DNA from: Staphylococcus sp. MI 10-1553
Lineage (GTDB): Bacteria > Bacillota > Bacilli > Staphylococcales > Staphylococcaceae
DNA: 64,000 bases
Assembly (NCBI RefSeq): GCF_010365305.1
Contig: NZ_CP048279.1
Coordinates: forward strand, 2,418,001-2,482,000
Reading direction: 5' to 3'
The notes under the pieces are model-generated. The model ran no database searches. It had not been told where the DNA came from and worked only from the letters and a program-made list of their open reading frames with translations. Within the stretch, counting starts at the first letter, position 1, and every line of letters starts with the position of its first letter. This document shows positions 29,248-53,579 of the stretch, piece by piece. Made by a program: the position numbers and the translations under genes.

Positions 29248-30525
29248 ATGAAAAAAATAATATTATCCATTGTGGTTGTATTCTTCGCTTCCACTATTAT
29301 AACACCTTTTGCACGTGCATATACACCCACACCGGTTGAACTTGCACAACAAAGTGGTTATCCTGTCACGTGGGCTTATCAACCTGAGGGCATGATTAAC
29401 ATCAGTCAAACAGGACAAATTTTGTACGAGTTTCAAAGTGAACAACAATGGTATCCTGCTTCTATGACCAAACTCATGACAATGTACTTAACGTTACAAG
29501 CCGTCAAAGAAAAGAAATTATCTTTAAACGACACGGTCCAAATCACTGACCAACATTACCGGATGTCCACCTTACCAGAGTTGAGTAATACGAAACTTTA
29601 TCCTGGTGAAACATACACCATTGCAGAATTGCTTCAGATTACAGTCTCCGCTTCAAGTAACGCAGCTGCACTGATTTTAGCCAATCAAGTTTCAGATAAC
29701 ACATCAGACTTTGTCGATAAAATGAATGACACTGCCAAATCTCTAGGTATGACGCACACCCACTATGTGAATCCTACTGGTGCAGAAAACCGCTTATTAT
29801 TGGAATTCGCACCAAAGAAATATCAACACGAACCATCTTCAACATCTTCAGCACGCGACTATGCCATTCTTGCCCAGCATGTTGTTAAAGACACACCTAA
29901 AATTTTGTATTTCACTAAACAAATTGCACCGACACAACACGGTGTCACATACTATACCTTTAACGATTTGTTAGAAGGTGGCAATATGAGTTTACCTGGC
30001 ACAGATGGGTTGAAAACGGGTTCGAGTGACATTGCAGACTATAACAACTCATTAACGACAAAACGTGGGAAATTCCGCATTTTTCATATTATTATGGGCG
30101 CTGGAGATTATAAACATCTAGGTGGCGAGAAACAGCGTAACATGATGAGTGCGAGCGCCATTAACTATACTTTTTCACAATATGACTATAAAAAGATATT
30201 ATCTAAAGGTAAACATAAAATTGATGGGAAATCGTACTATGTGACAGAAGATTTATACGATGTCGTGCCAAAAGACATGTCTGAACCTTATGATCTTGTC
30301 GTCAAAGATAGTCAAGTGCATCTCGATTATCCACGGAAGTTTATTACGAAAAACGACGGACCCCCAACAGTAAAAGTTGAAAATCCGTTCATCTATGAAT
30401 CTAAATCTGTAGTAGTCTCAAGTTGGCATGCATTTCCAGTATTGACGACACTCGCATTTCTCGTCATTGTACTCATCCTTGCATTTATTTTACGTCGATT
30501 GTTGAAATTGCTTTTTAGAAAATAA
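29248..30525 (+). CDS. pbp4: Penicillin-binding protein 4 (PBP4)
   Basis: Low-molecular-mass D-Ala-D-Ala carboxypeptidase/transpeptidase of 425 residues, anchored in the membrane. Signal peptide (about 1-24), penicillin-binding domain with the active-site motifs S72-M-T-K75, S136-S-N138 and K256-T-G258, a beta-rich second domain (about 315-385), and a C-terminal membrane segment (about 396-417) with a basic tail. S. aureus PBP4 makes highly cross-linked peptidoglycan in a way that depends on wall teichoic acid. Divergent from abcA. In S. aureus tarD comes next; here the AT-rich cassette intervenes. Confidence 0.95.
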   Translation: MKKIILSIVVVFFASTIITPFARAYTPTPVELAQQSGYPVTWAYQPEGMINISQTGQILYEFQSEQQWYPASMTKLMTMYLTLQAVKEKKLSLNDTVQITDQHYRMSTLPELSNTKLYPGETYTIAELLQITVSASSNAAALILANQVSDNTSDFVDKMNDTAKSLGMTHTHYVNPTGAENRLLLEFAPKKYQHEPSSTSSARDYAILAQHVVKDTPKILYFTKQIAPTQHGVTYYTFNDLLEGGNMSLPGTDGLKTGSSDIADYNNSLTTKRGKFRIFHIIMGAGDYKHLGGEKQRNMMSASAINYTFSQYDYKKILSKGKHKIDGKSYYVTEDLYDVVPKDMSEPYDLVVKDSQVHLDYPRKFITKNDGPPTVKVENPFIYESKSVVVSSWHAFPVLTTLAFLVIVLILAFILRRLLKLLFRK

Positions 30526-30727: not shown

Positions 30728-32359
30728 TTATATCAAATCATTTATCAACATAAATCTATTTTTCCTTTGCTCATCAGTCAACGGCACATGATCAACATTA
30801 ACTTCTGTGAATAAAGTCCAAGGTAAATGATTTTTATTTGCATATTTTACAGCTTCCAATGTATCTCTATAATCCAGTACACTATCGTTGTCACCTTGGA
30901 TAATGTAAACTTCTGTTTTAATATCGTTAATAAAATTTTTCCAATTAAAAATTGTTTGTATTTCTTCTACACTAAACCTTTCATTGAACCATTCACTTTC
31001 TTCAGACGATACCTTTTTTAAATGATGACTTAAATTCATTAAAGGTGCTATAGCAATAACTTTATTGATTTTTATATTTAAATTAGCAGCTATTAGCAAA
31101 GCAAGGGCAGCCCCAAAACTCCCTCCTATTAAAATAATATCTGAATCTTTAATATGAAACACATTTTGAAATTCTTTTATAACGTCTATTGTTATTCTTA
31201 TGACATTCATCCAATTCTTCCATGCTTTTTTTCTACTACTATAATTCTGATATGCAGAACCATAATAATTTAGCACAACTATAGCTGTTTCCTTTTTAAT
31301 TGCTTCACTGTATAAATCATAATAACGTAAATCATCAAATTCAAAAGATTCAGGACCGCCATGTAACGAAAATAAAAGTTTTTGAGGCTTACTTTCTAAG
31401 GGTTTATGTACAGTTATAGGATACGGTTTAGAAAAATAATCTGTATTTATTTTTTCTCTTTTATTTTTGTTATGATTAAAAAAAACAGTTCCATTTTTGT
31501 CAATATACCCCCACTTAATCCCTTCCTTCATACTTGTACCTTTGATAGTGATATAATTACTGTTCACAGAATGTATTTCTATATTACAGTTGTGAAGTTC
31601 ACGAACCTTAATCGTTCCTCCCATTTTTATTGAAATAATGTCAACCATTATTTCCTTACCCTTATTAAGTAATAAAACAATATATTCACTTTCTAATAGA
31701 TGGGCATTTATAATAGGCTCATTGTAACGTTTAGATAATATTATTTTATTATTTTGCATATTTTTCAATACAATTACTTCATATTCATTATACTCTATTA
31801 AGAAAAGAAAATAGTTTGAAGAATAAGAGAGAAATCTATCACATTCAAATAGTATATTAAAGTTAATATCAATAACTTTTGCCGCTTTACCAAAACCGGG
31901 TCTATCATTAGATATTAGAAAAAAACTAGAATTAAAGAAAGTCTCTATATCATAACTTAAGCATAAAGTATTCGTACATACTGTGTAATTATCTTTTAAA
32001 ATGGCCAGTGTGTTGCAATTATTGTTAATGTCTTGATAAACGATATAGAGCACATTTTCATCTATATCCATATATAAATCTTGTACAATACGAATATCAA
32101 TATCCTCAATATTTATGTTGCGCACTTTAAGTTCTGAAAAATTTAAACTGTACTCCTTTACAACTAAAGTATTTTTAATTGAACTTATAATGAGAAACTT
32201 CGGCTTAGTCTTCAATGAAAAGAAACCTAAAAAATAATTGTCCAATTTTTCAATACTTTCTTTATCACATATAATTTTATTCTCAGACAAAAATATTGGT
32301 TTATTTTCATCTGAGAAAGCCAATAGTATAGGATTACCAAAACGACTATTAATGAACAC
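30728..32359 (-). CDS. S9-type (prolyl oligopeptidase-like) serine peptidase
   Basis: A 543-residue protein without signal peptide. The C-terminal half (about 320-543) is an alpha/beta hydrolase with oxyanion motif HGGP (333-336), nucleophile elbow G-G-S414-F-G, acid D490 or D492 in QGDND, and H524 in NVDHVP, i.e. the S9 triad; the N-terminal half (1-310) looks like a degenerate beta-propeller. Such enzymes cut small peptides. Start is a GTG after AAGGAAGG. Last gene of the AT-rich cassette (line 31741-31800 has 9 G or C in 60), overlapping the MFS gene by 11 bases. It probably matures or destroys the cassette peptide; an acyl-peptide hydrolase or esterase role cannot be excluded. Confidence 0.8.
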   Translation of the reverse strand: MFINSRFGNPILLAFSDENKPIFLSENKIICDKESIEKLDNYFLGFFSLKTKPKFLIISSIKNTLVVKEYSLNFSELKVRNINIEDIDIRIVQDLYMDIDENVLYIVYQDINNNCNTLAILKDNYTVCTNTLCLSYDIETFFNSSFFLISNDRPGFGKAAKVIDINFNILFECDRFLSYSSNYFLFLIEYNEYEVIVLKNMQNNKIILSKRYNEPIINAHLLESEYIVLLLNKGKEIMVDIISIKMGGTIKVRELHNCNIEIHSVNSNYITIKGTSMKEGIKWGYIDKNGTVFFNHNKNKREKINTDYFSKPYPITVHKPLESKPQKLLFSLHGGPESFEFDDLRYYDLYSEAIKKETAIVVLNYYGSAYQNYSSRKKAWKNWMNVIRITIDVIKEFQNVFHIKDSDIILIGGSFGAALALLIAANLNIKINKVIAIAPLMNLSHHLKKVSSEESEWFNERFSVEEIQTIFNWKNFINDIKTEVYIIQGDNDSVLDYRDTLEAVKYANKNHLPWTLFTEVNVDHVPLTDEQRKNRFMLINDLI

Positions 32360-33554
32360 TCCCCCCTTCCTTATAATGTCTTTTCATAGCAGTGAAGAAT
32401 AATGGCAATAGAAAAGCATTGAATACTAATAGCGATGTACATATGATTAATGCAATCGTGATAGACATATTGTATAAATAACCGCCAAACGTACCTCCCA
32501 GGGTATCTCCTATAAAAAATGAAGATTGTGATAACCCAAAAAAGAAGCCTAAGTGAGGTTTAGGAAAAAGTTCTAATTCTATCAACTCTTGTGCGATTGC
32601 CGATCCAGTATATAAAAATGCCCTAAACACTAAAATCAACAATATGATTAAACTTGGTAACGACGTTAAAAACATTAAAAGTAATAGACCTGCAACGAGT
32701 TCACTTATAAAAAAAATCCATTGTTTATAGCGGCTAACATTTTTACTCGCATATATAGGTGCTGCAATAATAGCCGTTAAACTAATCATCGCTATAAATA
32801 TCCCTATCAGTGACACCGATATACCTTGATGCTTTAAAATAACTGGAATGAAAGGACTAATTAAACTGACTGACATCCCTGCAATAAAACCTAAAATCAC
32901 TATTCCAATAATCAATATCTTGTATTCTGTTAAAGGCTTTTTAAAATGCGTCTGATTTTCCTCAGCTTCCGTTACTTTTTTAGGGAATTTAGGCACTAAA
33001 AAAGTAGTTAACAAACAGCACATCGCCGCCAAAATCAGCACATATGCCATAGGTGCTTTAACTAAGTATGAAAACAACCACACTAGAATACCTGATAGAG
33101 ATGTTCCAATCATAATCCCTGTATGATTGCCCATTTCACTTATTGAGACAAAAGCTGGACGTTCTTCTTCTGTACCTAAAGACACAATCCAAAATCGCAT
33201 GGAGATAATCACAAGCGAAGCCCCTAACCCTGCAATAAAACCAGATAATCCTGCAATCCAAAAAGAATGTGTGAACACCCTTAATGCTAAACCAACTGCA
33301 TAAACGGTCACACCAAGTCTTAATGCAAAGTGAGGTGAAATCTTATCACCCAATTTCCCTGTAAAAAAGGAGAGTATCCCCGCAATTGCCATCATCGTAT
33401 ATGAGAAGCCAAATGAGGTTAAAGCCTGGTTTTCTTCAAACCATAACGCATGTATCGTTTTTGAAAGGTACATTGAGAAATAGAAAAATATACTAAACCA
33501 CAAAAATTTTTGAGCTGAAGGGAATTTTCTTAATGTATTCAACAGTTTCATCAT
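32349..33554 (-). CDS. MFS transporter of the AT-rich cassette
   Basis: A 401-residue major-facilitator protein with 12 membrane segments. Motif A is seen as GKLGDKISPHFALRLG near residue 65, a second copy region as APIYASKNVSRYKQW near 260. It is closest in feel to drug/peptide exporters of the DHA1 or YfcJ-like type. The gene overlaps both neighbours (the TPR gene by four bases, the peptidase gene by 11), so the three are translationally coupled. Export of a small molecule or peptide made by the cassette is the simplest role; immunity is another. Confidence 0.82.
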   Translation of the reverse strand: MMKLLNTLRKFPSAQKFLWFSIFFYFSMYLSKTIHALWFEENQALTSFGFSYTMMAIAGILSFFTGKLGDKISPHFALRLGVTVYAVGLALRVFTHSFWIAGLSGFIAGLGASLVIISMRFWIVSLGTEEERPAFVSISEMGNHTGIMIGTSLSGILVWLFSYLVKAPMAYVLILAAMCCLLTTFLVPKFPKKVTEAEENQTHFKKPLTEYKILIIGIVILGFIAGMSVSLISPFIPVILKHQGISVSLIGIFIAMISLTAIIAAPIYASKNVSRYKQWIFFISELVAGLLLLMFLTSLPSLIILLILVFRAFLYTGSAIAQELIELELFPKPHLGFFFGLSQSSFFIGDTLGGTFGGYLYNMSITIALIICTSLLVFNAFLLPLFFTAMKRHYKEGGSVH

Positions 33555-35053
33555 TTCGACTCCCTTTTAACAGATATTAAATTATCTTTATTTTGCTTCA
33601 ATAAATCGTTATGAGGGTATTTGTTACACCCCTTTTCAAAAATATCAATTGCTTTTGTAATATGATCGGTGTTGAGATAGGCTTCTACTAATAAAATGAC
33701 TAAGTCAATATAAACTTCCTCATCCGATGCTACTTCATTTAACACATTTTCATTAACAAGTTCAGTTGTTTTATTGTATTCCTCTAATTCATTTAACACA
33801 AAACAATAATCATATAAAAAGTCCACTTCTTTACCAGAGTAAATATAAGATTGATGAAAATGTTCTTTAGATTCAGGTAAGTAATTCAAATTTAAATAAT
33901 ATATCCCTAATAAAGAATGAATCTCTGGCACATAAGGATTGAAATTTAGTGCAATTTGGAGATGATTAAAAGCATTTTTATAATCTTTAATTTTTATAAG
34001 AAAGTTGGCATATTCTAAATGATTTTCTAAAAAAAGCGGATCCATTTTCAAAAGTTTTTCGAAACCCAATTTAACATCTTCTATTGAATTAATCTTCATA
34101 TAACATTGAATTAAATTGTAGGTTAATACACTCTCATGAAAAGAGTTATCTAATTTAGATAATTTATTAGTAGAAATTTCTTTAATGGCAACTTTTAATA
34201 ATTGTATTGCTTTTTCTATTTCATTTCTTTTATACAATAATAATGCGAACCCATTTCTATTAAAAATTTTGTAAAAATTAATCTCACTATCAGAAAAACA
34301 AGAATAGGCTTCGTTAAGTAGTTTTTCAGCAAGTTTATCAGATTTCAAAAAAATAGGGTGATGCCTAGCATATAACATTGCAAGCGCATAGTTAGAATCT
34401 ATTTGTCTATCTTCACTTAAACTTTCCTTACTTTTTGTAAGATAATATTCCGCTCTTTCTGTTTCTCCTATCTGAGTATATGCAATTCCCAAATCATAAT
34501 AGTAACAGTCATTTTCATTTTTTTCGTCTATTAAATTTTTAATAATATTAATAGCTGTCCATCCATCACCGACACTCAAAAATTTTAATGCTATATCATA
34601 AGCTTCATACTTATTTTCATTAAGTGCGTCTTTTACTACCTTCTCTAAATAGTCTTTATAATATTCTTCTTGAACAAGGTTTTCAAAATATATATTTCCT
34701 ATTTCATATTTTCTATAAATCTCTAAAAATATATTAGAGCCCACATCTATTTGTCCTTTATGATATATATATAAATCTATAGGTTCTTTAAACCTATTTT
34801 TAATTGCCAGTAAATTATAAGAAATATAACGTTCAATCCGAGCTTTAGTCGAAAACCTGAGTTGATTCGAGTAATTTTGTTTATCAGTTAAACTTCCGTA
34901 ATAATTCATTTTATTTTTTGTTATAGGATCCATAAGTGAATACAATTGATATTCAAAATTTTTTCTTGGTTCGAAACTTATTCGGTGCATAAACAATCGT
35001 AATAGTTGAAAGTTAACTAAATCATTAGAATAACATTTTAATAAGATTTTCAT
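33551..35053 (-). CDS. TPR-repeat protein with a novel N-terminal region
   Basis: A 500-residue cytosolic protein. Residues 1 to about 150 (MKILLKCYSNDLVNFQLLRL...) match no family I can name; from about 165 onward tetratricopeptide repeats are clear, for example CYYYDLGIAYTQIGETERAE, NHLEYANFLIKIKDYKNAF and PEIHSLLGIYYLNLNYLPES. No helix-turn-helix is evident, so it is not an obvious RRNPP regulator. Very AT-rich (34681-34740 has 10 G or C in 60, against 35 in 60 at 49321-49380 in sbnD). It follows the 25-residue peptide gene through an attenuator-like hairpin pair and overlaps the MFS gene. It may bind or modify the peptide; that is inference. Confidence 0.75.
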   Translation of the reverse strand: MKILLKCYSNDLVNFQLLRLFMHRISFEPRKNFEYQLYSLMDPITKNKMNYYGSLTDKQNYSNQLRFSTKARIERYISYNLLAIKNRFKEPIDLYIYHKGQIDVGSNIFLEIYRKYEIGNIYFENLVQEEYYKDYLEKVVKDALNENKYEAYDIALKFLSVGDGWTAINIIKNLIDEKNENDCYYYDLGIAYTQIGETERAEYYLTKSKESLSEDRQIDSNYALAMLYARHHPIFLKSDKLAEKLLNEAYSCFSDSEINFYKIFNRNGFALLLYKRNEIEKAIQLLKVAIKEISTNKLSKLDNSFHESVLTYNLIQCYMKINSIEDVKLGFEKLLKMDPLFLENHLEYANFLIKIKDYKNAFNHLQIALNFNPYVPEIHSLLGIYYLNLNYLPESKEHFHQSYIYSGKEVDFLYDYCFVLNELEEYNKTTELVNENVLNEVASDEEVYIDLVILLVEAYLNTDHITKAIDIFEKGCNKYPHNDLLKQNKDNLISVKRESK

Positions 35054-35077
35054 TCAACATCCCTTTTCTCCTTTAAG

Positions 35078-35119
35078 TATCAAAAAGAAAAAGCTTCTTT
35101 TTGATATGAGAAGCTTTTT
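35078..35119 (-). promoter_or_regulatory. Attenuator-like pair of exclusive hairpins
   Basis: Two perfect inverted repeats share sequence. Hairpin A pairs 35109-35119 with 35088-35098 (AAAAAGCTTCT / AGAAGCTTTTT) and is followed on the minus strand by CTTTTTG, like a terminator. Hairpin B pairs 35095-35106 with 35078-35089 (TATCAAAAAGAA / TTCTTTTTGATA). They cannot form together. They lie between the peptide gene and the TPR gene, so they could cap expression of the downstream genes relative to the peptide. Confidence 0.7.
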
Positions 35120-35150
35120 TCCTTTTTTCAACTTCAATTTTATAAAGTTA

Positions 35151-35228
35151 TTACTTTACGACTTTCCCTGAATACATGACTGAAAATTTTGAATTTTTAG
35201 CTTTTGGTGCTTTTTTAACCAATTTCAT
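35151..35228 (-). CDS. Small basic peptide, 25 residues, first gene of the cassette
   Basis: A short frame that begins MKLVKKAPKAKN and ends YSGKVVK (stop TAA at 35151). It has eight lysines, no Cys, no Trp and no acidic residue. A strong ribosome binding site GGGGTGAT stands just before the ATG at 35228. A possible promoter (CTGATA-17-TATAAT, 35315-35343) and a 14-base inverted repeat lie upstream, a terminator-like hairpin downstream, then the TPR, MFS and S9 peptidase genes. The layout is that of a precursor or signal peptide with its handling genes. It could be the substrate of the cassette (bacteriocin- or pheromone-like) or a leader peptide; no known family is recognised. Confidence 0.65.
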   Translation of the reverse strand: MKLVKKAPKAKNSKFSVMYSGKVVK

Positions 35229-35243
35229 AACCATCACCCCGTT

Positions 35244-35285
35244 ATATTATTAAAAAGTATTTCGCGAGCTTCTTTTTAATAATAT
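35244..35285 (-). promoter_or_regulatory. 14-base inverted repeat in the leader of the peptide gene
   Basis: ATATTATTAAAAAG (35244-35257) and CTTTTTAATAATAT (35272-35285) are perfect inverted copies around a 14-base GC-containing loop (TATTTCGCGAGCTT). It lies between the probable -10 at 35315-35320 and the peptide start, so it is either a 5' leader hairpin or an operator. Confidence 0.65.
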
Positions 35286-35663: not shown

Positions 35664-36062
35664 TTATTTTGCGTCTTTACCGTATAATTCTTGTTTGATT
35701 TGTGTCGTAGAAATACCTTCCGTACGCTTCAAGTAAATCACTTCACATTTATCTTTTAAGAAATCGAATTCACCTTCCCAGTCATGACCCATAACAAAAG
35801 TATCGATTTCATACTTCTCAACGTCCATTTCTTTTTGTTCCCAATCATTTTCAGGAATGACGAGGTCAACGTAACGGATTGATTCCAACATCATTTTACG
35901 TTGTTCAAAGTTGTAATATGATTTTTTGTTTTTAATGCGGTTGAATTCATCACTTGAGAGTGCTACAACGAGGTAATCCCCCATTTCACGTGCACGTCTC
36001 AGTAATTCAATATGTCCATAGTGTAAAAGATCATACGTTCCATATGTAATGACACGTTTCAT
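35664..36062 (-). CDS. tarD: TarD, glycerol-3-phosphate cytidylyltransferase
   Basis: Makes CDP-glycerol from CTP and glycerol 3-phosphate for wall teichoic acid. The 132-residue protein has GTYDLLHYGHIELL (the HxGH nucleotide-binding motif, about 8-21) and RTEGISTTQI (about 113-122), both signatures of this transferase. GGAGGTG precedes the ATG. It is next to tarB; in S. aureus tarX lies between the two, and pbp4 comes next on the other side, but here an AT-rich cassette separates tarD from pbp4. Confidence 0.95.
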   Translation of the reverse strand: MKRVITYGTYDLLHYGHIELLRRAREMGDYLVVALSSDEFNRIKNKKSYYNFEQRKMMLESIRYVDLVIPENDWEQKEMDVEKYEIDTFVMGHDWEGEFDFLKDKCEVIYLKRTEGISTTQIKQELYGKDAK

Positions 36063-42366: not shown

Positions 42367-43131
42367 TTATTCTGCTTCTATTAAATATATCTTTTCAGTA
42401 TAGCAACGCATGCTTTCAATTTTCTTCTGTAAAAATGTATGCCACTGTTCCTGATCTGCTGGATTGATATTTTTCAATAAATGGAGCGGAACTTGTAAAT
42501 TCAAACAACGCCCTGCAATGTTAAAACGCGTGACGCCCGCTGGTACAGTTTGACCTCTTTGCACAACAGCTTCAATTTCACCAATTTGAAGGGGCTGATA
42601 TTTCATTAATATATCATTGCTGTCGAGACACAAACAGGCGCTATGCGGAACACGTTCAACGTTGCAATTGGCACTGTAACTGTTCACAACCTTTTTCCAA
42701 ACATCAAGTTTATCTGCCGTTAAATCTGCTGCATATAAATAATGTTCCGTCTGTTGATCACACATCGTAATAAAAGGTGTTTCATCACGGACTTCTGTCG
42801 TCCACGGTAATAGTTCCTCATCCGTTAGCCCCTCGCACCAAGCGCCATTAGGGATTTTATGGTACCAGCTACCAATGGAATACTGTGTGCGCTGAATCAC
42901 TTGTACCGGAATAACTTCACAGCCTAACGCTTTCAAACTCATAAATCGGTGCACACCATCAATGACCATATAGCGACCAAATAATGTTTTAACGACGAGC
43001 ACAGGATGACGTAAATGCTGTTCTTTAGCAATGCTCTCTTTCGTTTTTTCTAATCGACTCGGTTCAAATGCTTCGTGGAGGTCAATCTTGTCGACTGGAA
43101 TGAGTTGCAATGTGTCGTAAATCTGTTTCAT
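42367..43131 (-). CDS. sbnI: SbnI, L-serine kinase and regulator of staphyloferrin B
   Basis: A ParB/sulfiredoxin-fold protein of 254 residues, the same length as in S. aureus. In S. aureus SbnI makes O-phospho-L-serine with ATP for SbnA, and also binds DNA and haem to tune sbn expression. The catalytic glutamate E20 (DLHEAFEP) and the DGVHR motif (58-62) are conserved here. It overlaps sbnH by four bases and is the last gene of the operon. Confidence 0.94.
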   Translation of the reverse strand: MKQIYDTLQLIPVDKIDLHEAFEPSRLEKTKESIAKEQHLRHPVLVVKTLFGRYMVIDGVHRFMSLKALGCEVIPVQVIQRTQYSIGSWYHKIPNGAWCEGLTDEELLPWTTEVRDETPFITMCDQQTEHYLYAADLTADKLDVWKKVVNSYSANCNVERVPHSACLCLDSNDILMKYQPLQIGEIEAVVQRGQTVPAGVTRFNIAGRCLNLQVPLHLLKNINPADQEQWHTFLQKKIESMRCYTEKIYLIEAE

Positions 43132-44330
43132 GATTCTCCCTCCTTTTCACGTGACCAATATACAAATTGTGGATGAGGATGGCTCAAAAAGTCGTGATGT
43201 GAAATCGACCAACCATACGCACCGGCATACGTGAAAATGATCGCATCACCTGTAGACAGCGCCGGTATATCCACCGCTTTAGCAAACACATCTTTAGGCG
43301 TACACAATTGACCGACGAGCGTAACTGCCTGTTGTTCAATCATTCTTGGTGCGACTTTATTTGCCTGTTCAGACAGAGGTAATATTTCAAATGGATGATT
43401 ATGTTGCCATGAGGCAGGAAGCCTGAAATGTTGTGTGCCCCCTTTTAAAATGGCAAACCATGCGCCATGCACACGTTTAATATCCAATACTTCGGTCACG
43501 TAATAGCCGATATGTGCCACCATGTAGCGACCACATTCAAAGTTTAAGGTCATATTTTGTAACCCTTCTTCTTTAATCAAAGCGGCCAGTTCTGTCGTGA
43601 AATACGTCCAGTCAAATTGTTCATTTAAGTCAGCGTAATTCACACCAATGCCGCCACCTACGTTCAGATGTTGCAATGTAAAGCCATGTTGTGCTGCCCA
43701 TGCTTTTGCCTTTTGGAAATACAACGTCATCACTTGTAAATGCAAGGCAGCATCTAAGTTGTTAGAAATCGAATGAAAGTGAAAGCCTTCTAATTGAATA
43801 CGTGGCATATTTTGCGTTGCTGCAATGACAGTGTCGACTTCTGTTTCATCAATACCAAATTGTGTCGGTTGTCCTGCCATATGTAATGTCGCAGCTGGAA
43901 AAGGTCCGGCTAAATTCACTCTAAGCAGGATAGACATGGTCGCATTTTCTTGTTCAAGCAATTCGTTTAAACGCTCTAATTCATATAAACTTTCAACATG
44001 AATGCGTCGAATCCCTTGTTGAATCGCGTATTGTAAAGATTCGTCAGTCTTTCCAGGTCCACCAAAGATAACATGTGCTGCTGTCGTATGTGCCAAAGCC
44101 TTTGCAATTTCACCTTCTGACGCGACTTCGAAGCCAGCGACATGCGGCTGAATCGCGGCTAAAATCTCAGACTCACTGTTCGCTTTCATCGCATAATACA
44201 TTTCACAATTGTCAGGCAGCTGTGATGTCACGGTTTCGAGATGTTGTCGTAGCGCGTCCATATCATAAATAAAATGGCAGAGTGGGTCTTGTTGTTTGAG
44301 CTGTTTAACTAATGTATGAATCGCCGTCAT
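43128..44330 (-). CDS. sbnH: SbnH, PLP-dependent decarboxylase
   Basis: A 400-residue alanine-racemase-fold decarboxylase of the diaminopimelate/ornithine type. It decarboxylates the citryl-diaminopropionate intermediate to give the diaminoethane part of staphyloferrin B. The PLP lysine is in YYAMKANSE (near residue 50), the PLP phosphate loop in HLNVGGGIGVNY and the partner-site Cys in GQLCTPKD. Overlaps sbnG and sbnI. Confidence 0.94.
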   Translation of the reverse strand: MTAIHTLVKQLKQQDPLCHFIYDMDALRQHLETVTSQLPDNCEMYYAMKANSESEILAAIQPHVAGFEVASEGEIAKALAHTTAAHVIFGGPGKTDESLQYAIQQGIRRIHVESLYELERLNELLEQENATMSILLRVNLAGPFPAATLHMAGQPTQFGIDETEVDTVIAATQNMPRIQLEGFHFHSISNNLDAALHLQVMTLYFQKAKAWAAQHGFTLQHLNVGGGIGVNYADLNEQFDWTYFTTELAALIKEEGLQNMTLNFECGRYMVAHIGYYVTEVLDIKRVHGAWFAILKGGTQHFRLPASWQHNHPFEILPLSEQANKVAPRMIEQQAVTLVGQLCTPKDVFAKAVDIPALSTGDAIIFTYAGAYGWSISHHDFLSHPHPQFVYWSREKEGES

Positions 44331-45099
44331 GTCCCGTCACCTCTTTCAACTGTGCTAAATTGTGTTTTAAATGACGATACAGTTTCCCTCGGTCATCGCC
44401 CATGAGAAAACATTGGACGCCTTGTTGTTGCCATCGTTGAACTTGTTGGTCATCTCGCGGTAAAGCACAAAACTGTTTACCTGCAGTTGTCGTTGTCGTG
44501 TATACATGCTGAAGCGCTTGTTGAACTTGATCATGGCTCGTTTCCCAAGGGATGCCGAGCGATTGTGATAAGTCAGCCGCACCTTCAATGACCATATCCA
44601 AACCTTCTACTTGTACAATTTCATCAATCGCGCGGACCCCTTGCATATTTTCTATCATTGCGATGACACATATCGATGCGTTCGCTTCAGCCATTGCTTC
44701 TTTTAAAGGAATCTCGCCAAATCGTGCGACGCGTCCGCCATTCAAACTGCGCATACCTTCTGGATAATAACGACTTAACTTCACAATCCGTTCTGCTGTT
44801 TCGCGGTCATTCACATGTGGGACAACAATCCCTTTTGCACCCATGTCCAACACTTTAATGATGTCGCGTTCAATTGCAGCTGTAACGCGGACAATCGGAA
44901 TAATATTGGATGTCTCCGCAGCACGAATCATATGTGCTAACGTTTCGTCGTTGATTGAGACATGTTCTGTATCAATAACGACAAAATCATAGCCACTTGC
45001 AGCAATGATTTCGATGACGAGTGGATCCGGAATCGAATTCATCAATCCATACTGTACTTTTCCTTCTGCTAAGTTACGTTTCAGTGACAATGGTTTCAT
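44305..45099 (-). CDS. sbnG: SbnG, citrate synthase of the HpcH/HpaI fold
   Basis: A 264-residue aldolase-fold enzyme that makes citrate from oxaloacetate and acetyl-CoA for siderophore assembly, so that citrate is supplied when TCA activity is low. Motifs include VVIDTEHVSIND (near 39), the arginine-containing IIPIVRVTA, and VIAMIENMQG (metal-binding Glu). TGAGGAGGTC precedes the ATG. Overlaps sbnF and sbnH. Confidence 0.94.
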   Translation of the reverse strand: MKPLSLKRNLAEGKVQYGLMNSIPDPLVIEIIAASGYDFVVIDTEHVSINDETLAHMIRAAETSNIIPIVRVTAAIERDIIKVLDMGAKGIVVPHVNDRETAERIVKLSRYYPEGMRSLNGGRVARFGEIPLKEAMAEANASICVIAMIENMQGVRAIDEIVQVEGLDMVIEGAADLSQSLGIPWETSHDQVQQALQHVYTTTTTAGKQFCALPRDDQQVQRWQQQGVQCFLMGDDRGKLYRHLKHNLAQLKEVTGHDGDSYIS

Positions 45100-46850
45100 G
45101 CTTCAGACCTCCTCAATGGATTGCGTACTTCGTGAAGACGTAATGCCACATCTTCGCGTAAACGGCGTGTCGTCAGTTTTTCCACTTGAATGGTCGGTAC
45201 GAATAAATCAAAGTGACGATAATTCTCAAGGTCTGGGAATTGATGTTGATACTGTTCAATGACTGTGCGTACCATTTCCCACTGTTCTGACGCTTTTATC
45301 TCATATTGATGTGCAACAAAGTCAATGATTTCTGCAATATTAATAAAGAAAAAGGCGTCATGTAAAAAATCACGGACGAGATCTACATCTTCTGTTTCGA
45401 TAAATGAGTTTTGGTTCACTTTACGATGCGCTTCAGGTGTGTCACGTAATTGCGGGTTTTGGGCACTCTCACTTAACAAGATCGGATTAAAGCGAACCCC
45501 GTCATGGAAGTCTTTCAATGCAATACGTGTCGGCCAACCCTCTTCATGAATCAACATCATATTTTGCGCGTGTGACTCAAACGCAATGCCATGGTAATAC
45601 AACATATGGATCATCGGCGTCACTGCGACACTTAAAAATTGTGCCATCCACTCTTCTGCACCATATTTGGACAGCCATGCATCAATGAGTGGTCGGTTGT
45701 CAGCGTCCACTGAATATAAAGCATTAAATGGAATAGCTGACTCATGCGATGCTAAATAATGATGAATATTTTCTCGCCAAATGACACCGAGTGCACCGTA
45801 AATACGTTGTTGTTTCACCTCGGACAAGGTCGGATTGTGATATGCATGGCCTAACACTTCACCTAGAAATACTGTCTTTAAATCTTGTTGTAAATACGTA
45901 TCTTTTGACTGAATACGTTTTAACCAATCCGTAATTTGTGCCGCATTTTCAATCGTGTGCGGGGCTAACACACGTTTCGTTGATGTATTCGTAATACTTA
46001 TCGGTGTTTTCAAATAATATTTGTTACGATCGGTCGGTGTGAGTGTTCGAATAGACTGTTGCGGCACATACATTTCGTCACTTGTTCCGAGCCATAACAT
46101 CTCTCCATGCATCCATGCTTCCGCAAATTCCACTTGAATGATATGTTCAAACTGCCACGGGTGTACCGGGATGAGCACCATCGTTTCAAGTGAATGCCCA
46201 TGTTGTTGGAGTGTCTTTTCAAATGCTGCCAACGTCTCTGCACCGAGCTGGCGTTGAAGCAATGCAACTGTATCGACACTCGTGGATACCGTCGTCTCCA
46301 CATAATCAGGTGCAATCGCAATCCACTGCAGTTGAAATGACGGTCGGAAATCCGGACCATAGCGGGCATTGTCGTCCAATGTAAAACCGAGACGTGATTT
46401 ATAACTCGGGTGATACATATGGCCTTCTATGGCATACGCTTCATAATCATCAAATGTCGTTAATGGCATAGATGATTGCTGTGCACGATAACGTTGCGCT
46501 TGCGTATCTTTAAGTTCGGTTTGTAACAATTCGACGATAAAGTCTTCTAGTTTTTGTTCATCTTTATCAAATGTAAAACGAACCTCTCGTAACAGTTGCA
46601 CATAGTCGAGAGTAACCGCTTCTTCCTCACCTGCAATACGCCAAACTGGAGAGATGAGCCTGAGTCGTTCAAAACTCTCGGACTGTTGCAGTTGCACACG
46701 ATACGTCGCGGCTTCACCCTCAATATCGTACGTATCACACCCGTCATCATCGAGCGGTGTCTGTTCATAACGCACCACGTCTTCATATATGAGTGACGTT
46801 ACCAACTGTTCCATGATACGTTGCCTCACTTGTTCAATCAGATGTTTCAT
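45096..46850 (-). CDS. sbnF: SbnF, NIS siderophore synthetase
   Basis: IucA/IucC-family synthetase of 584 residues that joins diaminopropionate derivatives during staphyloferrin B assembly. Family motifs: GHMYHPSYKSRLGF (near 137), IPVHPWQFEHI (near 227), SIRTLTP, KTPISITNTSTKR, and SHAQNMMLIHEEG...LKDFHDG (near 430). A FhuF-type ferric reductase region follows (about 400-560). Overlaps sbnE by 17 bases and sbnG by 4. Confidence 0.94.
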   Translation of the reverse strand: MKHLIEQVRQRIMEQLVTSLIYEDVVRYEQTPLDDDGCDTYDIEGEAATYRVQLQQSESFERLRLISPVWRIAGEEEAVTLDYVQLLREVRFTFDKDEQKLEDFIVELLQTELKDTQAQRYRAQQSSMPLTTFDDYEAYAIEGHMYHPSYKSRLGFTLDDNARYGPDFRPSFQLQWIAIAPDYVETTVSTSVDTVALLQRQLGAETLAAFEKTLQQHGHSLETMVLIPVHPWQFEHIIQVEFAEAWMHGEMLWLGTSDEMYVPQQSIRTLTPTDRNKYYLKTPISITNTSTKRVLAPHTIENAAQITDWLKRIQSKDTYLQQDLKTVFLGEVLGHAYHNPTLSEVKQQRIYGALGVIWRENIHHYLASHESAIPFNALYSVDADNRPLIDAWLSKYGAEEWMAQFLSVAVTPMIHMLYYHGIAFESHAQNMMLIHEEGWPTRIALKDFHDGVRFNPILLSESAQNPQLRDTPEAHRKVNQNSFIETEDVDLVRDFLHDAFFFINIAEIIDFVAHQYEIKASEQWEMVRTVIEQYQHQFPDLENYRHFDLFVPTIQVEKLTTRRLREDVALRLHEVRNPLRRSEA

Positions 46851-48552
46851 AAATACTGTCCTCCTCCTGACTTATCGGGTTAGGAATTTTAATATAAATC
46901 GGGTCTTCACCACGTTCTTGTAATTTACTCATCAAATTCGCCTTCGCAGCAAATGTCGGATTATAACGTAAATCTTCCAAACATTGCATTAATACATCAT
47001 GACCTTGTACACGTTCTTGCCACGTTTCCAATGTACGATTGACTGTTTGCCATAACATCTCTTCATCACCCGTTGCTTTTCCTAACGTAGAAACGAGATG
47101 GCCCAAATGGTTCACAATGACATAATATTTAAAACGGTGCCATGCTTCATGATGCGTATACACAACTGGACTGTCTGCACTCATTTGATGCGGAATCATC
47201 CCTTGTGCTGTGGCAATACGTTCAGAAACACAAATGCCTTCTAAATCGCGCACATAACAAATCGCTGGACGTCCATCTTTTAGCGCAATAAGTGTATTTT
47301 GGACGTGTGCTTCGAGACTAATCCCAGTGTGTGCAAATAATTCCAACATCGGCCAAATGACTTGATTTAAATACAATGTCAGCCAATCTTCACGAGATAA
47401 TCCACTACGCAACCAAGCTTGACCTAATTTTGACGTCGGCTCATCTGGCATCGTTTCAAATAAGCTTGCTAAGACGTGAATTTCTTCTAATGATTCGTAC
47501 TGTTCAATCCCTTCACGCACAATCATCGCACTATTGGCTAAAATATCTGTCGCAACATCATTGTCTATTTGTAATGCGCGGTAGCCTTGTTCAAACATTA
47601 GTTTAAATGTTGCCGTTTCATATTCTGGCTTAATCGCTGCTACAATTTCTGCCGCATCCAACGTTCTTTCAATTTGTTCGAAGTCATTTGTTCTCACAAA
47701 ATTCGTTATTTTAACTTGAACCGGCAACTTCAAATAAATATTCAACGCTTTTACGAATACTGTTCGCACAGATGACGTCGGATAAACGACATGGCCACGT
47801 TGTCCCAAGTCTTGAATCGTGCCATTTGCAATATGTTGCTGAATCGTCGGCTGTTGTTTGAGCACTTCAATTTGATAAGGATGAACTGGCAATAAACGAT
47901 ATGTTGCGGTATATTCATCTTCCTCGATTTGTGCAAGTTGACGCAAAGTTTCATCAACACGTGCTTCGTAATTAGGAACATAACGTTCGACTAATAAAGC
48001 TGGATCCACCGCTAAGTAGTGCAATTGGAACGCAACATGACATTCAGGTGCATACTGTTCGATATCTTCATCAGTAAAACCTGTAGCACTTTTCGGCGTC
48101 GGATGAAAAGGATGGCCAAGATAAAGTGATTGTTCTGATGCGATATAATGATTCTGATGGGGTGGTGCATGACGTCTTGCTTGATCGAGATAACGTGTTG
48201 TTCGTGAGATACTGTTACGTATATCTTGATAAACCGCTTCTACTATCGTTGTCTCAGTCGGCGAAGTTTCATCGTACGCAATCGCTTCAAGTAAATATCG
48301 AATCGTCTCAAGTGGTGTCAGTTGCGACACATGGCCGATGCTTTCTAAGTAAACGACTGAATCATACATGTGATGACCCATCGATGAGACATAGCGCAAC
48401 TTTCCACGTAACGTCAAATCATCTTTTAAAGCCACTTGCCACTGAGATGACCCTTCTCTTTTCGGACTACAGCCTTTTTCTCTAAAATAAATATTGAGTA
48501 GTCGTTCTAATGCAGCATGTTCCGCGCATTTGTTCATCTTAAAGTTTTGCAC
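46834..48552 (-). CDS. sbnE: SbnE, NIS siderophore synthetase
   Basis: IucA/IucC-family enzyme of 572 residues; it performs the first condensation of citrate with L-diaminopropionate. Motifs LYLGHPFHPTPKSATGF (near 137), LLPVHPYQIEVL (near 212), TSSVRTVF, KLPVQVKITNF, EAHVQNTL and RDLEG are present. The GTG at 48552 is taken as start because the product MQNFKMNKCAEHAALERLL aligns with S. aureus SbnE from its first residue. Overlaps sbnD by 14 bases. Confidence 0.93.
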   Translation of the reverse strand: MQNFKMNKCAEHAALERLLNIYFREKGCSPKREGSSQWQVALKDDLTLRGKLRYVSSMGHHMYDSVVYLESIGHVSQLTPLETIRYLLEAIAYDETSPTETTIVEAVYQDIRNSISRTTRYLDQARRHAPPHQNHYIASEQSLYLGHPFHPTPKSATGFTDEDIEQYAPECHVAFQLHYLAVDPALLVERYVPNYEARVDETLRQLAQIEEDEYTATYRLLPVHPYQIEVLKQQPTIQQHIANGTIQDLGQRGHVVYPTSSVRTVFVKALNIYLKLPVQVKITNFVRTNDFEQIERTLDAAEIVAAIKPEYETATFKLMFEQGYRALQIDNDVATDILANSAMIVREGIEQYESLEEIHVLASLFETMPDEPTSKLGQAWLRSGLSREDWLTLYLNQVIWPMLELFAHTGISLEAHVQNTLIALKDGRPAICYVRDLEGICVSERIATAQGMIPHQMSADSPVVYTHHEAWHRFKYYVIVNHLGHLVSTLGKATGDEEMLWQTVNRTLETWQERVQGHDVLMQCLEDLRYNPTFAAKANLMSKLQERGEDPIYIKIPNPISQEEDSIYETSD

Positions 48553-49801
48553 GTTGCTCTTTAACCTCCCAAAAACCCGTCAATATTGGGTTAATTTTTT
48601 GATTTTTAATATGTGACGTCCATAATAGCGTGCTACTGAATGCGAAAATAACGCCCATTAGGATAAATGTTGTCGTCGGTGCGGTATAACTCGTCACCAT
48701 TGCACCACTCAAACTACCGACGATTTGCCCGACCACTAAGAAACTATTCGTTGAGCCTACAAATGTCGCTTTCAGTTGGTGATGACTCGCATTCACAACG
48801 ACAAACATGACACTTTGAATGAGCGCACTATAAGTTAAACCTTGTAACACACGTGCGATACCCAACATCCACAAGTCTGTCGCCACACCTTGCCAAAGTA
48901 CACTCATACCACATAAAATACTCGCAATAATATATACATTTTTGACATAAGCTTTATCATTGAAGTAACCCCAAAAAGGCGCACTCATCATCGAAGCCGT
49001 CCAAAACGCTGACTGTAAAATCCCGACTGCCGCACGATCATCAATGTGAACATGATTGACGGTGCTCACTAATGGGGCCAAAGCAGTCATCATGCCATAC
49101 ATCGCAAAATTCGCTAATACGCCGACGATAATGAAACGACAAGTCAGTTGGGTACACAACAAACATTTCATCGATTGTCGAACACTTTTCTTAACTAGTG
49201 GCTGTTCTGTATTCGCGTACGTATGTGTTGTTTCAATTAAGAAAAAGACACCCAGAATACTCATCAACAAAGTGATAAGACCTATCAAGAATAAGAGCGC
49301 TTGAAAACCGAGCACCGTCGCGAGCACACCGCCGATCAGTGGACCCACGAGAGAGCCGGCACTCACAGCACTTTGTAATTTACCGAGTACCGCACCACGC
49401 TCAGATTCCGGGGCTTCACCACTTGCAAATGCACTCGAAGCTTCGACGACACCGCCAAATAAACCTTGCAATAAGCGTACGAGAACAAATTGAAACGGTG
49501 TCGTACAAAAAGCCATTAATAAGAGACATAGCCCTAAGCCGAACAATGCACGCAAAACCATCCATTTTCGGCTCAGTCGGTCACCGAGCTTTCCCCATAA
49601 TGGAGAAGCTAACATCGTTGTAATCGCAGGCGCCGCAATGGCAATCCCACTCCACAACTGAATTTCAAAAACGGTCAACTGTTTCAAAGACGCCATATAG
49701 ATTGGAAGTAATGGAACTAAAACGGTCAGCCCCGCTATGGCCATAAACTGACCGAGCCATAGCGTTCTGAAATTACGTCGCCACGTTTGTTCTATGGTCA
49801 T
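48539..49801 (-). CDS. sbnD: SbnD, staphyloferrin B exporter (MFS)
   Basis: A 420-residue major-facilitator protein with 12 membrane segments, DHA1 type. Motif A GKLGDRLSRKWMVLRA (near 70) and the antiporter motif GPLIGGVLATVLGFQALLF (near 158) are visible. In S. aureus SbnD secretes staphyloferrin B. Its start lies within the 3' end of sbnC, fixing it in the operon. This stretch is richer in G and C than the rest of the window. Confidence 0.93.
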   Translation of the reverse strand: MTIEQTWRRNFRTLWLGQFMAIAGLTVLVPLLPIYMASLKQLTVFEIQLWSGIAIAAPAITTMLASPLWGKLGDRLSRKWMVLRALFGLGLCLLLMAFCTTPFQFVLVRLLQGLFGGVVEASSAFASGEAPESERGAVLGKLQSAVSAGSLVGPLIGGVLATVLGFQALLFLIGLITLLMSILGVFFLIETTHTYANTEQPLVKKSVRQSMKCLLCTQLTCRFIIVGVLANFAMYGMMTALAPLVSTVNHVHIDDRAAVGILQSAFWTASMMSAPFWGYFNDKAYVKNVYIIASILCGMSVLWQGVATDLWMLGIARVLQGLTYSALIQSVMFVVVNASHHQLKATFVGSTNSFLVVGQIVGSLSGAMVTSYTAPTTTFILMGVIFAFSSTLLWTSHIKNQKINPILTGFWEVKEQRAKL

Positions 49802-51548
49802 CTGTCCCTTTCATTGGATTTGGTACACGACCAATACTCGATGGCATACTTCCACCACCGTCACCACGCTGATGTAACAATGGCAGTAAAATGCGTTTGA
49901 ATGGCCATGTTTCGTGCGTAAAAATAATGCGTTCCACTTTTTCGGACGTCCCCGGCAACCAATCTACTGTGTCGATGTGACGTTGCGTCGCTTGTCTCAA
50001 CTGTGTCATCAATTCCGTTTCAGATACTTTAAATACATCGACTAAAGCATCGACAATCGCATACAAATTGACACTCACTGCTAACGTTTGAAAATAAGCA
50101 AAAAATGTTTCGATATCTTCATTCAATAGTGTGTTCGGCGTATCTTTTCTCACCGCATAATTCGGCAGTTCAAAACCTTGCGCTGTTAACCACTCAGGGA
50201 AAATGCGGACGGTATCATGATCACGCAATACAAATTCAGTCACACGCCCTTCTCGAAAAACAACTAACACATTTTGACCGTGCAGTTCAGGCAACACACC
50301 GTATTTCATCAATGAGAGTGTCATCTTTAAAAATGCATCGCTCATTTGCTCAAATAATGCAGTGATTTGTTCGGTCGTTGGATTGTCAGTCTCTAAAATG
50401 CGTTTATAGAGTGTCGGTTCATGTGCCGCGAGTGCCGCCATCGAAGTGAGGATTTGTGCATCTTTTACTGACTCAGGGTAATGACGTAACTGCATGGTGA
50501 GGTGTCCCGATTGATCTTGAAAAGTATCTTGTGCTTCATTCATGTATGACCACCACACCGTTTCGTCACACAACTTCACACGACCGTTCAATGACGTATC
50601 TTGGGCGATAATGTCACGCAATAACGCTTCTCCGGCTTCTCCATTTTTCATGTAACGTGTCGGCGTCAGTCTCAGCGCACCCAGTGATTGCATTGAAAAC
50701 GGCACTTTCAGATGCGTGAATGGCGCGTCTATTGGTATCAATGTTCGCATAGATGAAGAAGAGAGATATTGTCCCATCGTCACATCAAGCAAGACGACGA
50801 TATCTTGTTTGATCTCTGCACTAAATTGAATCGGTAAGACATGTTCATATTGCCAAGGATGTACCGGAAAAATGATATAGTCCGCGGTGTCATAACCTTT
50901 CTCAATCAGTGCTTGTTGACATCGAGACAAAGTGTCACCCCAAAACTGCGCGTACTGTTCGTCTGTCACGCCTTTACCTTTTATTAAGTGTGACTTTTGA
51001 ATCGCAACGGTCTGAATAGCTAATGGTTGATGATATTCCGCTTGATACAGTGCATAATCTTTTGCTGACAACCCTCTTTTTTCTTTTGCGACTGGATGAA
51101 AAGGTCTGTCTTTCAAACTGGCAAGCTGTTCTGACAAGACGAATGGATGTTCTGAAGCTTTAAACCCATCATATTGTGCTGTTAACTCGGTCACAGCTGT
51201 CTCCAATCCCTCTGCAAAGCGCGCATGTGCCCACTCAGTCGCTAAATCTGCATTCATTGTGACAAATAATTCCCACAATTCATGCACTGTCAAAGGCATA
51301 CACGTTTTACTTTCAATGTGAAACACTGCCTCTCCATTGAAGCGATACACATTCAGACCACTAAAATAAACCGGAATGAGCAACACAATCCCCTTTTTCT
51401 CATAACGTAAATACGCCTGTTGCTGTATCATTAATCGTTCACTCGTCGATGCAATGCCACCTAAATCTTCAAATAATAACGCATCCACAAGGTCTTGTAA
51501 TATGTATTGTTGTGCACGCGTTACATTGTGTTCGTGTTCGCTTACCAT
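49773..51548 (-). CDS. sbnC: SbnC, NIS siderophore synthetase
   Basis: Third IucA/IucC-family synthetase, 591 residues, completing staphyloferrin B with alpha-ketoglutarate-bearing intermediates. Motifs: RPFHPVAKEKRG (near 143), FPVHPWQYEHV (near 223), SSSMRTLIPI, LGALRLTPTRYMKNGE, LHGQNVLV and LRDHDTVR. The ATG at 51548 is preferred: AGGAG is eight bases upstream, while the GTG at 51557 is inside that site. It overlaps sbnD by 29 bases. The C-terminal GGGSMPSSIGRVPNPM is like S. aureus SbnC. Confidence 0.94.
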   Translation of the reverse strand: MVSEHEHNVTRAQQYILQDLVDALLFEDLGGIASTSERLMIQQQAYLRYEKKGIVLLIPVYFSGLNVYRFNGEAVFHIESKTCMPLTVHELWELFVTMNADLATEWAHARFAEGLETAVTELTAQYDGFKASEHPFVLSEQLASLKDRPFHPVAKEKRGLSAKDYALYQAEYHQPLAIQTVAIQKSHLIKGKGVTDEQYAQFWGDTLSRCQQALIEKGYDTADYIIFPVHPWQYEHVLPIQFSAEIKQDIVVLLDVTMGQYLSSSSMRTLIPIDAPFTHLKVPFSMQSLGALRLTPTRYMKNGEAGEALLRDIIAQDTSLNGRVKLCDETVWWSYMNEAQDTFQDQSGHLTMQLRHYPESVKDAQILTSMAALAAHEPTLYKRILETDNPTTEQITALFEQMSDAFLKMTLSLMKYGVLPELHGQNVLVVFREGRVTEFVLRDHDTVRIFPEWLTAQGFELPNYAVRKDTPNTLLNEDIETFFAYFQTLAVSVNLYAIVDALVDVFKVSETELMTQLRQATQRHIDTVDWLPGTSEKVERIIFTHETWPFKRILLPLLHQRGDGGGSMPSSIGRVPNPMKGTDDHRTNVAT

Positions 51549-51559
51549 ATATGCCACTC

Positions 51560-52570
51560 CTAATAAAGACTTAATGTTGTGCCTATATTTTCAGCTTGCG
51601 CACGTTGATAAATGAAGTACGCACTCGCAATGTCTTCAATCGCCATGCCCATTGGATTCAACAAAATAATCTCATCGTCATGTTCACGTCCGACCTTCTC
51701 ACCTGTCACAAGTTGTCCGAGTTCAGCGTGCAACTGCTCTCGACTAAATAGGCCGTCTTGAACAAGTTGATGTATCGTTTTCTTTTCGCGATTACTTTGT
51801 GACCAATCATCTACAACGACTTTATCTGCTTTAATGAACACTTCTTTATGCACATCCATAATCGAAATGTTGCTTACAAATGCGCCTTGACGTAACCAGT
51901 CGTATTCGATGTACGGTTGATCCGTCACTGTACATGGAATAACGACATCACCATTTTCAACTGCTTCACGTGCAGATTGGGCTTGAACCCATGTGATATC
52001 TGGTCTTTGTGCGGACCATTTTTCAATCATTTTTTGTGATGCTGCTTCAAATTGATCATATAAATAAACATTTTGTATATGATTGAACTGTTCAAGCATC
52101 GTTTGGAGCTGTTTATCACCAATCAAGCCGCAACCGATAATCGTTAAGTTTTCAAAACCTGGTCGCGCCAAGTGACGTGCCGCAATCGCTGAAACGGCTG
52201 CTGTACGCATACTACTGATTAAACTTGCTTCCATTACAGCAATCGGGTAATTCGTTTCTGGATCATTTAAAATAATGACGGCACTGGCACGTTCAATTTG
52301 ACGTTTTGAAGGGTTGTCGTGTTTACTACCAATCCACTTAATTCCTGACACTGAATGATTACCACCGATATGACTTGGCATCGCAATAATGCGGTCGGCG
52401 ATATGACCATTTTCAGCATCTTGACGTAAATAAGGTTTCAACGGTTGGACGAAATCTTGATTCGCATGTGCGGTTAATGCTTCTGTTAATGCATCGACAT
52501 AAATTTGTGACTGTGCTCCTCCTGCTTGTTCAATGTCCGTACGATTTAAATACAATAATGGATGTTTCAT
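51560..52570 (-). CDS. sbnB: SbnB, ACEGA dehydrogenase
   Basis: Ornithine-cyclodeaminase-fold NAD enzyme of 336 residues, the S. aureus length. It oxidatively hydrolyses N-(1-amino-1-carboxy-2-ethyl)-glutamate from SbnA to L-2,3-diaminopropionate and alpha-ketoglutarate. The NAD motif IIGCGLIGDKQL (near 150), the substrate region GIKWIGSKHDN and the SSMRTAAVSAIAA helix are clear. ATG at 52570, just after the sbnA stop, gives MKHPLLYLNRTDIEQAGG, aligning with S. aureus; the frame extends to 52585. Confidence 0.95.
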   Translation of the reverse strand: MKHPLLYLNRTDIEQAGGAQSQIYVDALTEALTAHANQDFVQPLKPYLRQDAENGHIADRIIAMPSHIGGNHSVSGIKWIGSKHDNPSKRQIERASAVIILNDPETNYPIAVMEASLISSMRTAAVSAIAARHLARPGFENLTIIGCGLIGDKQLQTMLEQFNHIQNVYLYDQFEAASQKMIEKWSAQRPDITWVQAQSAREAVENGDVVIPCTVTDQPYIEYDWLRQGAFVSNISIMDVHKEVFIKADKVVVDDWSQSNREKKTIHQLVQDGLFSREQLHAELGQLVTGEKVGREHDDEIILLNPMGMAIEDIASAYFIYQRAQAENIGTTLSLY

Positions 52571-52571
52571 A

Positions 52572-53579
<1,008 letters not shown>

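Follow-up and report, generated by a model that had tools for sequence, protein, structure and literature searches.

Microcin C (mccABCDEF), as described in excerpts of PMC6495379, is derived from a very short precursor of conserved length, and a terminator between mccA and mccB allows excess peptide to be made; a dedicated pump and self-immunity complete the system. According to excerpts of PMC12951456, a prolyl oligopeptidase (POP) is the likely leader protease of myxarylin, a ribosomally synthesized and post-translationally modified peptide (RiPP), and a methyltransferase acts last. The present analysis concerns a cassette of four genes at positions 30728–35285 of a 64,000-nucleotide stretch (hereafter, the window) of a Staphylococcus-type chromosome, which is a single contig of 2.90 Mb. 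As described in the initial annotation, all four frames lie on one strand (the minus strand) and encode a 25-residue peptide, a 500-residue tetratricopeptide repeat (TPR) protein, a major facilitator superfamily (MFS) transporter and an S9-type hydrolase, and the last three genes overlap, by 4 nt (TPR/MFS) and 11 nt (MFS/S9). The cassette probably represents a family with a RiPP-like, peptide-derived product. Judged by its genes, it would work like a RiPP cluster, with a short encoded precursor divided into leader and conserved core, and with an exporter gene. The shared layout is a peptide of 20–29 residues, whose core ends in Tyr (residue 19 at the preferred start in most loci), just upstream of a dedicated TPR gene; an exporter gene lies close by, and most loci also have an S9 hydrolase. 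No family or earlier description of the cassette was found in open PMC text.

The cassette resembles microcin C and ThiF-type antibiotics (e.g., pantocin A), as far as the excerpts describe them, in its short precursor of conserved length, export pump and proposed self-immunity, and possibly in its terminator-like hairpin. However, the window peptide ends in Lys after 25 residues and holds a leader and an internal core, whereas microcin C is based on a heptapeptide ending in Asn. Moreover, no ThiF match was found among the window cassette proteins, and the TPR protein and the S9 hydrolase are not mcc parts in the excerpts of PMC6495379; one relative (locus L090) does have a ThiF enzyme of MccB type and a peptide with a terminal Asn. 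POP-trimmed RiPPs, such as myxarylin and some class III lanthipeptides, likewise combine an S9/POP enzyme with a short precursor, but no P450, lanthipeptide synthetase or recognised modifying enzyme is present here, and the proposed binder is the TPR protein. The precursors of pyrroloquinoline quinone (PQQ) and mycofactocin have 20–30 residues and a conserved Tyr near the C-terminus, and are clipped; in contrast, family scans of the window cassette proteins gave no radical S-adenosylmethionine or PqqD/RiPP recognition element match. RRNPP systems (Rap, NprR, Rgg) also pair a short peptide with a TPR superhelix protein, a fold that is generic for TPR proteins. They differ in that no DNA-binding domain was found in the window TPR protein, the peptide gene lies upstream, and an exporter and a hydrolase stand in the operon. 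Within RRNPP, the Rap proteins have no helix-turn-helix (HTH) domain.

The short peptide and its core

The peptide gene (35151–35228, minus strand) encodes MKLVKKAPKAKNSKFSVMYSGKVVK, with 8 Lys among its 25 residues, and its ATG has GGGGTGAT just 5'. It can be divided into a basic 14-residue leader, MKLVKKAPKAKNSK, the core FSVMY at residues 15–19 and the tail SGKVVK. Further in-frame starts are present; the chosen start is among those best supported by ribosome-site score and puts the core Tyr at residue 19. Pfam and NCBIfam scans gave no match for the peptide.

Loci for comparison were gathered without the motif or the peptide, by tblastn of the TPR protein against plasmids (17 records) and by scanning a genome collection with the TPR alignment (26 loci). 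The core, which was defined only after the peptides had been inspected, reads [FNM][SA]V[MLV]Y from residue 15 or 16, in a frame of 18–40 residues at most 520 nt upstream of the TPR gene. Such a frame was found in 24 of 30 loci (the window and 29 others), in none of the 12 control loci with larger, distantly related TPR proteins, and in 0 of 9000 dinucleotide shuffles. The count excludes L014, a second Acinetobacter record with a broken TPR gene, three loci 100% identical to others (L043, L045 and L046 to L018, L031 and L035, respectively) and L090–L097; four of the controls (L048, L049, L051 and L053) share 96–98% identity, and L059, which carries a sister-class peptide, is not among them. 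Since the core recurs at near-fixed spacing in most loci and in no control or shuffle, the window frame is, on sequence evidence, a real gene and not a chance frame. Co-occurrence of a short frame with the TPR gene in other genomes, which the initial annotation had proposed as a check, was thus confirmed. Outside the motif, Tyr19 is retained in L020 and L023 (FVLGY) and in L035 (LAVMY), Tyr18 closes SIGY in L009, and L019 appears frameshifted, in its peptide as well as in the N-terminal part of its TPR gene.

With author-picked starts, a 14-residue leader results for 23 of 24 peptides and a 15-residue one for the other, and the tail has 2–10 residues. As alternative starts are available in many frames, the choice was repeated by ribosome-site score alone, using 29 frames from 27 loci (three frames being the Exiguobacterium copies; L019, L023 and L035 were left out). 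Tyr was then residue 19 in 20 of the 29 frames. In seven loci (L010, L011, L018, L021, L027, L034 and L036), an alternative start, not the top-scored one, gives Tyr19, while the scored starts give Tyr20 in L008 and Tyr18 in L009. Among five Streptomyces and five gammaproteobacterial peptides, residues 15–19 show only synonymous changes, and the replacements sit in the leader. Peptide and TPR distances were correlated across 24 sequences (Mantel r 0.69, or 0.74 for the leader alone; 0 of 2000 permutations), as would be expected for binding partners, with shared ancestry contributing.

The Lys-rich window peptide, together with the lack of a known modifying enzyme in the window cassette, would also fit an unmodified short cationic bacteriocin, for which the TPR protein would serve as chaperone or immunity protein and the MFS and S9 proteins in export and detoxification. 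However, the leader has a net charge of only +1 in three Arthrobacter-type peptides and of −5 in Williamsia, from which it appears that charge is not decisive. What is conserved is instead the short core, and ThiF and O-methyltransferase genes occur in relatives. Thus, a plain cationic bacteriocin is considered improbable.

The TPR protein and the hairpin

The TPR gene (33551–35053, minus strand) was recognised by its family match (best TPR family, E 2.1e-12) and an AlphaFold2 model with a mean pLDDT of 90.0. Residues 1 to ~145 form a small alpha/beta domain with a conserved SLT...QLRF...R motif, and the remainder is a TPR superhelix. The second check of the initial annotation, whether this N-terminus falls within a familiar family of another kind, gave no clear match: residues 1–150 had no Pfam or NCBIfam match, and Foldseek gave no match to the N-terminus at E ≤ 0.001. 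Its profile is moderately similar to the N-terminus of the larger TPR homologues (hhalign probability 81, E 1.2e-5), and no Walker A, a motif of STAND NTPases, was seen by eye in the window protein.

In structure comparison, the superhelix resembles NprR and RapI. Accordingly, the peptide might be a secreted pheromone that is bound or sensed inside the cell by the TPR protein, in the manner of RRNPP quorum sensing, all the more as RNPP_C regulators lie beside the Exiguobacterium and Priestia cassettes and HTH_3 regulators upstream of two streptococcal ones. Nevertheless, no HTH family matched the window TPR protein at E ≤ 1, no obvious Sec-type hydrophobic signal was seen by eye in the peptide, and the neighbouring regulators are encoded separately and could act on a product cluster. 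Pheromones usually diversify, but this core is nearly constant across four phyla. Signalling of this kind is therefore regarded as unlikely. The two streptococcal HTH_3 regulators (L020:5361–6248 and L023:5014–5880; 288–295 aa) are possibly Rgg-like.

Between the peptide and TPR genes lies a terminator-like hairpin with a T-run (35085–35122, minus strand; p 0.01 from 200 shuffled versions of the gap), a possible leaky terminator, although a general scan listed the stem in the plus orientation only. Hairpins of this type reached p ≤ 0.05 against shuffles in 15 of 24 peptide–TPR gaps, where the TPR starts were partly author-chosen and seven loci with unclear gaps were omitted (L013, L023, L026, L028, L029, L035 and L041).

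Exporters, hydrolase and putative tailoring genes

Plasmid-borne and chromosomal copies of the cassette were found in four phyla, Bacillota, Actinomycetota, Pseudomonadota and Fusobacteriota. Among the hosts are Bacillus, Seinonella, Paenibacillus, Streptococcus, Listeria, Streptomyces, Arthrobacter, Williamsia, Providencia, Pantoea, Klebsiella pneumoniae and Streptobacillus; the Klebsiella pneumoniae, Pantoea and Listeria copies are plasmid-borne, and others lie in Streptomyces contigs. Cassette make-up was taken from a scan of the loci and, for L008, L012 and L015, from annotations. The order TPR–MFS–S9 was observed in 16 of 30 loci, and TPR–MFS without an adjacent S9 gene in six (L009, L013, L020, L023, L034 and L036). 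L012 and L015 carry TPR, a 77–78-residue protein, an O-methyltransferase and MFS, while L008, L030, L031 and L033 carry ATP-binding cassette (ABC) transporter genes and S9. Compared with the initial annotation, the family thus spans four phyla, uses an MFS or ABC exporter, does not always have S9 adjacent, and includes ThiF and O-methyltransferase genes in some relatives.

The exporter near the TPR gene is MFS in 24 of 30 loci and ABC in 6, gene content that points to the dedicated exporter of RiPP clusters. Peptides with VMYCYK occur in L008, L030, L031 and L033, all with ABC exporters, and in no MFS locus. When this was used as a prediction for two loci with unassigned exporters, L041 (VMYCYK) and L035 (VMYYYK), an ABC transporter was found beside the TPR gene in both. 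In the window, the MFS gene (32349–33554, minus strand, 401 aa; MFS_1 match, E 7.7e-31) is proposed to encode both the exporter and a self-immunity pump, the latter in view of an intact orthologue in a broken cassette.

The S9 gene (30728–32359, minus strand, GTG start) encodes a 543-residue protein that matched Peptidase_S9 (E 2e-8; PF00326, 34.4 bits against a cut-off of 22.6). The triad S414-D492-H524 was correctly noted earlier, as Ser, Asp and His occupy these columns in each of the 20 S9 sequences compared, the window's included. Its C-terminal hydrolase domain and Ser-Asp-His triad indicate membership of the S9/prolyl oligopeptidase family, and the solved structures that its profile matches best are aminoacyl and acylaminoacyl peptidases and other alpha/beta hydrolases. 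This enzyme family prefers short peptides, and removal of the leader or the tail is the proposed role.

An informative relative lies on an Exiguobacterium alkaliphilum plasmid (L090:1586–8007). It has three tandem frames, each encoding MKTVVIKKNSVRAKVVLGYN and each with a ribosome site; the peptide is related to that of the window and ends in Asn. The copies differ at 11 codons, and every change is synonymous. Next, on their 3' side, come a hairpin (p 0.005), a TPR gene related to that of the window (4e-12) and an MFS gene. Divergently oriented genes encode a ThiF adenylyltransferase, with MccB (4e-23) and then PaaA as best solved matches, an 84-residue protein (28% identity over 57 residues to its Bacillus badius counterpart) and an O-methyltransferase (50% to the B. 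badius counterpart), and an RNPP regulator lies beyond them. ThiF and O-methyltransferase genes were seen in relatives only.

These copies bear on whether the frame is instead a regulatory leader peptide, i.e., a site of drug-dependent ribosome stalling for a TPR–MFS–S9 drug-resistance operon. A short frame with a near-fixed distance from start to core, a hairpin ahead of the first large gene (15 of 24 gaps) and an MFS pump downstream would suit such control. However, the three Exiguobacterium peptides were held identical through synonymous change, and precursors under protein-level selection beside MccB-like chemistry appear to fit a product rather than a regulatory leader. Furthermore, core class tracks exporter class, the hairpin is not significant in the other gaps, Rfam gave no match, and a Staphylococcus relative (G050, below) has lost the core yet keeps an intact MFS gene. 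Stalling control was thus judged very improbable.

Two further observations concern related loci. A sister class of short peptides, in which RTTTPY or RTTTSY stands close to the C-terminus, lies upstream of TPR genes at L059:31, L092:3148, L093:2999 and L094:3063, with an MFS (L094) or LysE (L092) exporter nearby; on the L094 plasmid, from Streptomyces sp. NBC_00503, an ATP-grasp gene directly follows TPR–MFS–S9 (L094:9598). On Acinetobacter lwoffii plasmids (L013 and L097), TPR and MFS genes are present and no recognisable peptide frame was found upstream.

History in Staphylococcus and proposed pathway

A TPR search of 100 genomes matched four: the window's own, G050 with a broken copy, and two weak generic ones. 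When the regions of 11 relatives were compared by blastn, alignments covered parts of the cassette in G050 and just the MFS gene in G059, and no part of it aligned in the remaining nine; the cleanest empty site is in G015, where the aligned flanks are 94 bp apart. In G050, the MFS frame is intact (400 aa), deletions or interruptions affect the TPR and S9 genes, and FSVKR stands in place of the peptide core. Between G050 and the window, dN/dS was 0.13 over the 402 MFS codons, which align free of indels; in the TPR and S9 relics, of which 209 of 501 and 159 of 544 codons aligned, it was 0.33 and 0.52, respectively. At the corresponding site, G059 carries an MFS gene (65% identity), together with a peptide-like frame that lacks the VMY core. 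Overall, an MFS gene of the cassette subfamily occurs in 5 of 61 genomes. Since an intact MFS gene adjoins broken partners in G050, an immunity role is suggested, and an immunity or efflux function that outlived production seems the simplest reading, recombination being another possibility. Two further Staphylococcus genomes (G029 and G048) carry MFS genes of the same subfamily at L102 and L103 (56–57% identity); no short frame with a ribosome site was listed upstream of them in a weak scan that covered only 460 nt for L103 and missed the G059 frame.

Several points weigh against a RiPP-like product. Pfam and NCBIfam scans found no known modifying family among the window cassette proteins, so that core modification is hypothetical there and an unmodified peptide would also fit. 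The constant leader length depends partly on the choice of start codon, the peptide–TPR correlation stems in part from shared ancestry, and the structures matched by the TPR protein are of a kind common to helical repeats. Nine of the 24 gaps have no significant hairpin in the shuffle test, no peptide frame was found upstream of TPR in L013 (Acinetobacter; TPR and MFS), and S9 was not found adjacent in L009, L012, L013, L015, L020, L023, L034, L036, L041 and L090 (L035 runs off the contig end). In addition, dS between G050 and the window is 0.37 for MFS and 0.12 for the TPR relic; because it exceeds that of the relic, the G050 MFS gene may be a recombination replacement rather than a retained copy.

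For the RiPP-like product, the following pathway is proposed. Because a leaky terminator follows the precursor gene in many loci, the precursor would be made in excess. The TPR superhelix would bind the leader and set residues 15–19 at a fixed distance for processing, the near-constant leader length placing Tyr19 at a set point. In some relatives, processing may involve the ThiF-like adenylyltransferase and the O-methyltransferase. The region ending at Tyr19 would become the product, the S9 enzyme would remove the leader and/or the tail, and the MFS or ABC exporter would secrete the small product and protect the producer. The initial annotation had proposed that the cassette makes, exports and cuts the peptide and had recognised no family for it; this view is partly supported, having withstood the check for a conserved frame beside TPR genes elsewhere, and making, cutting and exporting remain predicted steps. 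As the cassette is often plasmid-borne and the pump gene occurs without the producing genes, a role in competition with other bacteria is likely.

A wider proposal is put forward only tentatively: a large, undescribed superfamily of peptide-derived natural products may centre on a TPR protein whose STAND-type domain is reduced and which would count residues from the precursor N-terminus and present one Tyr (18 or 19) for chemistry. Its subfamilies (FSVMY, NMAVMYCYK, VLGYN and the sister RTTTPY) would swap exporters and tailoring enzymes (S9, ThiF and O-methyltransferase) and move on plasmids among four phyla. If the product reading is true, this is a class of ribosomally derived small molecules that would probably escape standard cluster finders, since TPR, transporter and hydrolase genes are its markers and the precursor is absent from the (incomplete) plasmid gene tables examined. 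Such molecules may act in bacterial competition across many settings, from Klebsiella pneumoniae, Pantoea and Listeria plasmids to Streptomyces contigs. Clear predictions that can be tested follow from the near-constant length of the leader, from a core that hardly varies and from the association of core class with exporter class.

In the window, the cassette sits between the pbp4 and tagD genes; profile scoring identified staphylococcal PBP4 (29248–30525) and glycerol-3-phosphate cytidylyltransferase (35664–36062) as its flanks, where staphylococcal TarB and TagH were also scored. The GC content of 30728–35285 is 28.8%, compared with 37.7% for the window, and is also low (29–36%) at 6–11 kb. 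Separately, 42367–53549 holds a Staphyloferrin B siderophore cluster, in which the SbnC and SbnA models scored above their cut-offs and the remaining genes are presumed to be cluster members from their order.
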